From a virus, in the IMG/VR virus record IMGVR_UViG_3300047564_003152, positions 1-38,011 of that record: DNA of 38,011 nt, one strand, 5' to 3'. This document shows positions 22,377 to 36,426 of this stretch, piece after piece; position 1 is the first letter of the stretch; every line of letters starts with the position of its first letter. Position numbers and translations under genes: made by a program. The notes under the pieces are model-generated. The model saw only the letters and a list, made by a program, of their open reading frames with translations, had not been told where the DNA came from and did not search any database.

Positions 22377-22754
22377 TTAATGTGTTATTTTAATTTTTTT
22401 CGGTCTCTTCTCTTCAGGAATAACCAATTCAAAATTTATAGTTAAAATTCCGTTTTTAAAATTTGCATCACGAACTTTATATTCATCATCTAAAGTGTAT
22501 TCTAAAGTAAACGGAGAATAACTTATGTGATTAACTATGTACTTTCTTGAATCTTTTTGTTTAGGGTCATACGTGACATATAACTTGTTGGCTTGAACCT
22601 CAACATTTAAATCATCTTCATTCAATCCAGCAACATTAAGCTCTACGGCAATTTCGGTATTGCTTACCCTAACCAAATTGTAAGGAACATATTTTCTTGC
22701 GTATCTCTTTGGCTCATTTAACAAAGTATTAAGTGTCATGTTATCAAATATCAT
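22377..22754 (-). CDS. hsp20: Small heat-shock protein Hsp20
   Basis: 125 residues. PYNLVRVSNTEIAVELNVAGLNEDDL and the final alpha-crystallin strand NGILTINFELVIPEEKRPKKIKI are typical of IbpA-like Hsp20 found in T4-like marine phages. It holds unfolded proteins, perhaps as a scaffold helper in head or tail assembly. GGAGGT lies 8 bases before the ATG. It is followed by its own terminator. Confidence 0.93.
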   Translation of the reverse strand: MIFDNMTLNTLLNEPKRYARKYVPYNLVRVSNTEIAVELNVAGLNEDDLNVEVQANKLYVTYDPKQKDSRKYIVNHISYSPFTLEYTLDDEYKVRDANFKNGILTINFELVIPEEKRPKKIKITH

Positions 22755-23783: not shown

Positions 23784-24101
23784 TTATGGATTTTTTATTG
23801 TCCAATCAAGTTTTTTTAGAATTTCTTCTATTTCTTGGTGTGCAAATCCTTCTTTTCCTGACAAATAGAAGTCCAGGTATTCTTCATCTAGGTTAAAAAA
23901 GACGTTTCTTAAATATGCTACAAATCCGGCGGCATATCTCCAAGAAGGAAAAAACTCATGACAGCCTTTAATGAATATGTGATTACACAGCGTCTCATAC
24001 AATTTTGTTGCAAAGTTCTTGTTTCGTATTAGTTCCGGCAATATTTTGCAATTTAGAAGGTCAATCTCAAATTGGTTATTTCCAAAGGTTTCAAATCTCA
24101 T
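23784..24101 (-). CDS. Phage protein, function unknown
   Basis: 105 residues. Two helix-rich halves: FFPSWRYAAGFVAYLRN near residue 50 and EEYLDFYLSGKEGFAHQEIEEILKKLDW at the end. I recall similar proteins in T4-like marine phages but no function. The ATGA overlap with the gene at 24098 means coupled translation. Confidence 0.72.
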   Translation of the reverse strand: MRFETFGNNQFEIDLLNCKILPELIRNKNFATKLYETLCNHIFIKGCHEFFPSWRYAAGFVAYLRNVFFNLDEEYLDFYLSGKEGFAHQEIEEILKKLDWTIKNP

Positions 24102-24319
24102 TTTAAATTTCTATAAAAATAAAGAGCCTCAGTTTTACTGGTAAATAGGCATATCATTTTTTTGGTGGTATATGCCCATAATGTATCAAATCTATTAAAT
24201 ATTGCTGAATGATATGCATTATAAAATATCTTGGGACTCAAGTCAAGGGTGGCAATTAAATCTTTGCTACTGTTAACTTCTATCTTTTTATTTAAATCGA
24301 CCAGTGTTATAATTTTCAT
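24098..24319 (-). CDS. Small protein, unknown function
   Basis: 73 residues from ATG 24319. An earlier start would run into the tmRNA gene. KIITLVDLNKKIEVNSSKDL reads as a beta hairpin and helix. It follows the tmRNA 3' end by 17 bases on the same strand and overlaps the gene at 24101 by four bases. No ribosome binding site is visible. Confidence 0.65.
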   Translation of the reverse strand: MKIITLVDLNKKIEVNSSKDLIATLDLSPKIFYNAYHSAIFNRFDTLWAYTTKKMICLFTSKTEALYFYRNLK

Positions 24320-24336: not shown

Positions 24337-24735
24337 TGGTGGACCTGATCGGGAGTCGCACCCGATGTTCAAACTATTCTCTCTCATAGCCATATACAAC
24401 AATAGTCTAAACTTTCTGGCTTTCCAAGCCCTTAACCCCGTTGACATTCAGTTTAGACAACACTCAGTCACAAGGAGCTGGTCAACCAGCTTTCGCACCC
24501 AAGTTTAGGTTTTAACCTCACATAACGGATGGTTATCTGTGAGCACCACTAGTTTGAATTTCGCAACTTATAGAGTAACTAGCAGAACATCTATAAGCCA
24601 CGGATTATGCGGCTAAGGCGTAATCGAAAGAATCAAAGTTTGCACTTAGATTTTGGTTCATTTATTACGATGCCAAGAACCATCATCGTGTTGTAGGCGT
24701 ATAGTTTCTATAGTTTGTCGAATCTACACAGGCCC
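24337..24735 (-). ncRNA. ssrA: tmRNA (ssrA), one-piece
   Basis: 399 nt. The acceptor stem GGGCCTG (24735-24729) pairs with CAGGTCC (24347-24341), including a G3-U70 pair, the AlaRS identity signal. Discriminator A and encoded CCA (24340-24337). A tRNA-like 5' part with TAGATTCGAC. T-stem TCGGG/CCCGA. Pseudoknot 1: CGATG/CATCG (24688-24668) whose loop base-pairs GGTTC with GAACC (24659-24655). Resume codon GCA at 24643; the tag is ANFDSFDYALAA, ending TAA at 24605. It rescues stalled ribosomes and tags proteins for proteolysis. Confidence 0.96.
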
Positions 24736-24746
24736 ATATTTAATTT

Positions 24747-24775
24747 ATAATATCTTATAGTTTTTTAATTGTCAA
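24747..24775 (-). promoter_or_regulatory. Host-type promoter of tmRNA
   Basis: On the minus strand TTGACA (24775-24770), 17 bp spacer, TATTAT (24752-24747). The start would be about five bases before the mature tmRNA end. A strong promoter of its own sets the tmRNA apart from the surrounding operon. Confidence 0.85.
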
Positions 24776-35451: not shown

Positions 35452-36426
35452 CTAAAATAAATCCTCCGATGTGATTGATTGAACTTTCTTGCTGTATGAT
35501 ACCGGCTTCTTATAGAAGAAGTCATTATTTACCTGAGAGTATATTTCTTCTTGAAACCATTCCATTGATGCTAACTTTTCAGTGTCGACTTCAAATACTG
35601 GCTGCCCTTCAATATCCATAATACTTTTATTGAATCGGTCTTTGATAAACTCTTTCAAAACATCCACTTTGCAAAACTCTAATTCTCCAGCTTCAAATAT
35701 CCAGTCGATAATTTTAGCCTCGGCCTCATATGCCTTTTTAGCTGCTCTATATATCTTCTCATAAAAGTGCTCATCGAACCACTCAGGAAACTCAGACTTA
35801 ATCTTCTTAATTAGATAAGTGCCAAGCATTGCGTGAATCAACTCTTCTTTTTGTGTTGCCTGAACTACATTATCAACATCTTTAAGCATATTCTTATGCT
35901 TGTTGAATGACTTGATGATTGCAAACTGGGAGAACAGACTTACATTCTCAATAAAAATTGCAAACAGAGCTAGAGTTAATGTGTAATTTTGTGCATTTGT
36001 GTCGGAAGCATTCTTTAGATATTTGGTAAGATACTCAACTCTACCTTGAATAGCTGGATTCTGAAGAATCAAAGCAAAGTCAGTATTGAGTCCAAGAACT
36101 TCAAGAAGATGTGAATACGCATCTGCATGTCTAACTTCAGATTCGCCGAAGGTTACGCCAACTTGCTCAAATTCGGGCTTTGGAAATTTTTGTCCGAGGG
36201 TTGTCCAGAACCTCTTAACCGAAACTTCAATCTGAGAAATAGCAAGAAGAGTATTCTTTATAGCATTTCGCTCAACGTCTGTCAATTTCACTTTAAAATC
36301 TTGTATATCACTAAAAAAATTCCATTCGCTCACTAGCCAATAGCTGTGATTAATTGCGTTTTTATATGCAACAACTTCAGGGTATTCAAATGGCTTGAAT
36401 TGCACCCGCTTATCAAAAATTGACAT
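35452..36426 (-). CDS. nrdB: Ribonucleotide reductase beta subunit NrdB
   Basis: 324 residues (T4: 388). Di-iron ligands: E67, E97 and H100, E160, then E195 and H198 (EELIHA). The radical Tyr Y104 in EVRHADAYSH is intact, so this is class Ia. It is first in the operon: GGAGGC sits before the ATG and the stop is one base from the nrdA start, giving about equal output of both subunits. Confidence 0.96.
   Translation of the reverse strand: MSIFDKRVQFKPFEYPEVVAYKNAINHSYWLVSEWNFFSDIQDFKVKLTDVERNAIKNTLLAISQIEVSVKRFWTTLGQKFPKPEFEQVGVTFGESEVRHADAYSHLLEVLGLNTDFALILQNPAIQGRVEYLTKYLKNASDTNAQNYTLTLALFAIFIENVSLFSQFAIIKSFNKHKNMLKDVDNVVQATQKEELIHAMLGTYLIKKIKSEFPEWFDEHFYEKIYRAAKKAYEAEAKIIDWIFEAGELEFCKVDVLKEFIKDRFNKSIMDIEGQPVFEVDTEKLASMEWFQEEIYSQVNNDFFYKKPVSYSKKVQSITSEDLF

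Follow-up and report, generated by a model that had tools for sequence, protein, structure and literature searches.

Identification of a one-piece tmRNA gene

Does a T4-like phage known only from metagenomes encode a complete tmRNA, and is that RNA maintained for use during infection? The question is raised by a 38-kb virus record analyzed over its whole length of 38,011 nucleotides (hereafter, the window), for which an initial annotation made from the sequence alone had proposed a one-piece phage tmRNA with an ALAA tag and had suggested a search with the Rfam tmRNA models. That search (cmscan) revealed a high-scoring match to RF00023 (Rfam tmRNA) on the minus strand, running from 24735 to 24337 and covering model positions 1-374 of 374 with 78.7 bits (E 4.1e-29; curated cut-off, 47 bits). 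The full-length match, together with the covariation described below, bears out the proposal, and the G3-U70 acceptor, the encoded CCA and the pseudoknot before the resume codon, also listed there, can all be read in the sequence (Table 1). The 5' end of the RNA lies at 24735 and the encoded CCA at 24339-24337. The acceptor is that of an alanine tRNA-like domain, with 7 bp, the G3-U70 alanine identity pair and A73-CCA, and all seven pairs are present in all relatives. The gene is not permuted: its RNA opens with the 5' strand of the acceptor and closes with the 3' half of the tRNA-like domain, and the arrangement of RF04321, in which the 3' tRNA half is encoded before the 5' half, was not found. 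Nor is the RNA of the DS6A type, which consists of the tRNA-like domain only, since it measures 399 nt and includes a tag and pseudoknots. Its predicted fold has a z-score of -2.85, and none of 100 shuffled sequences was equally stable.

Table 1. Coordinates of the tmRNA gene, its parts and the adjoining reading frames in the window.
Feature	Position	Strand	Description	Basis
Promoter, sigma70-type	24747..24775	-	TTGACA-17-TATTAT	consensus match and relatives
ssrA (tmRNA gene)	24337..24735	-	mature RNA of 399 nt	cmscan RF00023; 17 compensatory pairs across 4 relatives
Acceptor stem, 5' strand	24729..24735	-	GGGCCUG	pairs with CAGGUCC at 24347-24341
D-loop segment	24717..24728	-	UGUAGAUUCGAC, A replacing the usual G18	
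Pseudoknot PK1	24655..24688	-	5' of the resume codon	CGAUG/CAUCG and GGUUC/GAACC
Tag frame	24605..24643	-	GCA...TAA, ANFDSFDYALAA, 12 residues	same length and ends in L307 and L315
PK2-PK4 pseudoknot region	24406..24595	-	helices 7-11	covariation structure
T-arm	24348..24366	-	6-bp stem AUCGGG/CCCGAU, loop UGCGACU (G for U55)	RF00023 alignment, covariation
orfA	24098..24319	-	73 aa, starts 17 nt after CCA	L085 protein 100% identical
orfB	23784..24101	-	105 aa	start overlaps orfA stop (ATGA)

Relatives and selection on structure

IMG/VR contains two identical copies of the gene (L082 and L090) and a third copy, L085, with 98.7% identity, while two further genes, L307 (400 nt) and L315 (388 nt), were found by means of the T-arm pattern. 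The three distinct relatives thus span identities from 98.7% down to about 75%. When a hand-written structure of 71 pairs was applied to the four-gene alignment, 97.2% of the pair cells were paired (29-41% in slid controls), and 17 of the 71 pairs had changed on both sides; such pairs numbered 0-2 when the structure was slid and averaged 6.0 in shuffles. Because a single member of the alignment supplied the structure, the comparison with slid controls favours it, and the changes on both sides are the stronger evidence. They include two compensatory pairs in stem 2 of PK1 and extend to four of the five PK2-PK4 helices, the second stem of PK3 showing none. The family has therefore evolved as a structured RNA; with 17 pairs changing on both sides and 97% of the pair cells staying paired, the window tmRNA is, on this comparative evidence, a maintained RNA gene under structural selection.

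The downstream genes of L307 and L315 differ from those of the window. In the relatives L315 (3521-3596) and L277 (9610-9688), the tmRNA is followed after about 30 nt by a CyVA-1 RNA motif (RF02965), which was not detected in the window.

Tag reading frame

The tag frame follows PK1, opens with the resume codon GCA and ends with a stop within helix 5. L085 encodes the identical tag with two synonymous changes, and the tags of L307 and L315 read ANFDANAYSLAA and ANFNDSAYALAA, respectively. In all four distinct genes the frame and its stop are intact and the tag has 12 residues, while the middle codons differ, leaving a constant pattern, ANF....Y.LAA, around a variable middle. The FDSFD segment had been singled out in the initial annotation as unlike known tags. 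It is new by a limited test, as a narrow tag pattern had no match in the bacterial genomes of 84,980 species and INPHARED contained no phage sequence matching the window tmRNA, but the tag middle varies freely among relatives, so the segment itself is probably unimportant. ClpX reads the C-terminal end of the tag, and the YALAA/YSLAA end seen here is ordinary.

These observations bear on the idea that the main role of the RNA is to change the tag, with phage or host proteases treating the new tag differently on host or phage proteins. The window tag is indeed unlike the others in this set and its narrow pattern is unmatched in bacterial genomes, but given the ordinary end and an unusual middle that is not retained among relatives, we consider such a main role unlikely.

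Promoter

The promoter upstream of the gene matches the consensus at 11 of 12 positions, with 11 nt separating its -10 box from the start of the RNA. A scan of the region yielded 8 promoter-like sites against 7.5 expected, so the window promoter alone is not significant, and that of L307 is likewise weak alone (shuffle p 0.27). The four upstream regions are dissimilar, yet each has a promoter with a spacing of exactly 17 nt that ends 8-12 nt before the RNA, the -35/-10 pairs being TTGACA/TATTAT, TTGACT/TATACT, TTGAAT/TATAGT and TTGACA/TATACT. Because L085, L307 and L315 keep a promoter of this spacing despite their differing upstream sequences, the window promoter is credible; the strong promoter of its own originally ascribed to the gene stands as a promoter conserved with three relatives, but not as one that is significant by itself. 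Action late in infection, as suggested in the initial annotation, is no better a match to a sigma70-type promoter than early or middle expression. A second promoter-like site (TTGACT-17-TATAAT, 24218-24246, minus strand) lies within orfA, upstream of orfB.

An unusual tRNA-like domain

The T-arm reported in the initial annotation is present but lacks the canonical build of a 5-bp stem and a UUC loop, having 6 bp and UGC, and thus no U55; the D-loop carries A18 (positions 18 and 55 follow tRNA numbering by analogy). That annotation was mostly right about the gene and its interpretation, but the sixth T-stem pair, the exchange at the elbow (A18/G55) and the cassette described below had escaped it. 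Accepted tmRNAs with exceptions to the canonical T-arm exist (PMC1168896), and the canonical form is typical of tmRNA rather than defining. A 5-bp T-stem, a UUC loop and G18 are present in all 62 bacterial one-piece tmRNAs sampled, which come from the two phyla to which a Parabacteroides and a Chlamydiae MAG belong. The second pair of the T-stem is A-U in L307 and L315 and U-A in the window, and other viral lineages differ in the sixth pair, which may be A-U, G-C or U-A; since such compensatory changes occur both within the clade and across lineages, the sixth pair is real.

Among the tmRNAs that could be parsed, a UGC loop is always combined with A18 and a UUC loop with G18. The first combination was seen in about 75 permuted genes whose T-stem has 5 bp and in about 25 genes, one-piece as well as permuted, whose T-stem has 6 bp; the second was seen in the 62 bacterial and in 9 viral tmRNAs. 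The one-piece variant with a 6-bp stem and A18/G55 was found in 23 distinct contigs and the permuted variant in three (L263, L285 and L313), which share both the T-stem length and the elbow with the one-piece phage genes. The nine viral-contig tmRNAs with a UUC loop also have a 6-bp T-stem.

Several readings of this domain were dropped. The UGC T-loop (G55) is not a rarity, being carried by at least 120 viral contigs, and it accompanies A18; the 6-bp T-stem is not tied to A18/G55, as it is also present in G18/U55 tmRNAs; and a D-loop one base shorter does not compensate for the longer T-stem, its spacing overlapping that of 5-bp genes. The exact D-loop pattern, which is narrow, revealed no tmRNA in the genomes of 84,980 species, and its matches in Parabacteroides and Chlamydiae MAGs are not tmRNA.

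Taken together, the 6-bp T-stem and A18/G55 suggest that the tRNA-like domain is constructed in a different but compatible way rather than decaying. The resulting 13-bp acceptor/T helix is abnormal, and weaker binding of EF-Tu or SmpB could follow. An abnormal elbow would also suit a decoy, an RNA that, instead of carrying out trans-translation, would reduce it in the host by binding SmpB or AlaRS, and for the short phage form, which in mycobacteriophage DS6A is limited to the tRNA-like domain, an inhibitory counterpart has been tested in the laboratory (PMC4131195, PMC11915505). A decoy, however, needs neither tag frame and stop nor PK1 and the other pseudoknots, all of which are kept with compensatory changes; because of this conservation we regard it as slightly less likely still than a role in changing the tag.

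A second one-piece lineage, 386 nt long and with the tag AEDNVVSYDFSYDDVVALAA, was observed in L203, L243, L253, L255, L306, L312 and others; it comes from many metagenomes, lies beside tRNA arrays in several loci and is accompanied by a T4-type portal gene in several records. Separately, a recurrent element, GCGGGGTGCAACTCCCCGC...TCCACCA, mimics the tmRNA T-arm (L264, L266, L267 and about 25 more loci); an Rfam scan of three loci with this element (L264, L266 and L316) showed no tmRNA.

A blind spot in detection

ARAGORN reported no tmRNA in the window and detected none of the 24 viral genes of the 6-bp class, the single call in the set (L312) lying elsewhere, although it found all 62 bacterial control tmRNAs and 34 of 37 viral loci whose stem has 5 bp. 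When the window RNA was given a 5-bp stem, in a diagnostic version made for ARAGORN only, the program found the gene with the correct tag, and the loop change alone had no effect; it is therefore the length of the T-stem that hides the gene. The published phage census (402 of 18,146 genomes) was typed with ARAGORN (PMC9004378), and the main protocol of the 2025 tmRNA database, which holds 79 phage sequences, combines ARAGORN and BLASTN, not covariance models (PMC11915505). Both figures agree with the early remark that phage tmRNAs are known but rare. Given the contrast between the 6-bp class and the bacterial controls, ARAGORN-based published phage tmRNA counts are lower bounds, which is a practical blind spot. 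A broader and tentative proposition, which may well prove wrong, is that viruses, especially T4-superfamily phages, maintain tmRNA lineages with a 13-bp acceptor/T helix and A18/G55, one-piece as well as permuted, that are largely invisible to ARAGORN, hence under-counted, and maybe tuned to SmpB/EF-Tu differently from host tmRNA.

Gene cassette and phage context

The tmRNA, orfA and orfB form a 971-bp block (24746 to 23776) with 96.7% identity between the window and L085, compared with 64-71% in the other alignable stretches. One edge is no farther than 11 nt from where the RNA starts, leaving the promoter outside, and the other is just past the orfB stop; the block looks recently exchanged between phages. 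The orfB proteins are 93% identical, and orfB was present only in contigs carrying window-type tmRNA. No match to orfA was found in PHROGs, PADLOC or INPHARED and no convincing family match to orfB; PHROGs, PADLOC, PDB and INPHARED gave nothing usable for either frame, nor any known relative outside these contigs.

The genome is a fragment of a T4-superfamily myovirus, with genes for the baseplate tail tube cap, the tail tube, a gp32-like SSB (phrog_224) and the large subunit of ribonucleotide reductase, the small subunit of which we take to be encoded at 35452-36426. Further genes encode ThyX, PhoH and dGTP diphosphohydrolase. For SSB and PhoH, the nearest isolated relatives are cyanophages and other phages, and protein identity to them does not exceed about 56%. 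An HSP20-type small heat-shock protein gene is located at 22377-22754 (minus strand), and, elsewhere in the set, a 186-kb viral contig (L208, IMGVR_UViG_3300032267_001142) has a GOLLD RNA match beside tRNA genes.

Bacterial ssrA is a common phage integration site (PMC11915505, PMC9004378) and the gene lies in a block that looks recently exchanged. It is nevertheless highly improbable that the gene is host DNA picked up by the phage, the remnant of an integration site or a decayed, functionless copy, and the four-gene covariation already largely refutes this. The gene is of full length, has its own promoter, shows compensatory change across the four phage genes and is flanked by phage genes on both sides, and no integrase was found among the window genes scanned.

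Proposed function

The best explanation overall, which we hold with considerable confidence, is a functional one-piece tmRNA of a T4-superfamily phage that would work with host machinery, the functional steps being deduced from sequence. Host RNA polymerase would transcribe the gene from the TTGACA/TATTAT promoter, and RNase P and 3' nucleases would trim the RNA. Host AlaRS would charge it at G3-U70, after which host SmpB and EF-Tu would bring it to ribosomes halted by broken or non-stop mRNA. Synthesis of the nascent chain would then continue in the phage frame, and the appended ANFDSFDYALAA would mark the product for host ClpXP.

A search of 15 related records found no SmpB gene, so the phage tmRNA probably borrows SmpB, AlaRS and ClpXP from the host. 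All of these records are fragmentary, and a phage SmpB may be encoded in a part of the genome outside them. T4-like phages degrade host transcripts, and non-stop mRNA is therefore expected to be abundant in infection. The likely benefit would be that ribosomes are kept free while infection-time mRNA breakdown stalls many of them, and such ribosome rescue is the simplest benefit of a phage tmRNA.

The locus belongs to a well-supported clade of phage tmRNAs that deviates from the textbook form at the T-stem and at the contact between D-loop and T-loop, and in which the requirements of SmpB, EF-Tu and AlaRS are naturally put to the test. The distinct elbow and tag could also mark phage trans-translation during infection.

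Comparison with known systems

The window gene shares with the one-piece tmRNA of RF00023 the G3-U70 acceptor, CCA, the D-segment UUCGAC, PK1, the resume codon GCA, the ALAA tag and a T-arm; it differs in its 6-bp rather than 5-bp T-stem, in A18/G55 rather than G18/U55, and in being invisible to ARAGORN. Phages with described tmRNAs include mycobacteriophages Bxz1 and Wildcat, Bacillus phage G and Methylophilales phage Melnitz (PMC4131195, PMC9004378), and, as in these, a complete ssrA is present in the phage genome. Melnitz also has ssrA and thyX in one region, as the window does, although its ssrA is two-piece and permuted. The A18/G55 elbow is likewise found in permuted tmRNAs of Alphaproteobacteria and viral contigs (RF01849, RF04321), unlike which the window gene is one-piece. 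Each feature has a single precedent, namely a possible sixth pair of helix 12 in Dehalococcoides ethenogenes and the reported change of U55 (E. coli U342) to G in Caulobacter (PMC1168896), whereas the window class has both features together, conserved across several viral lineages, a joint conservation of which no description was found in the searchable literature. Phage tmRNA is, in summary, an already known kind of gene, to which the window gene adds a conserved variant of the tRNA-like domain.
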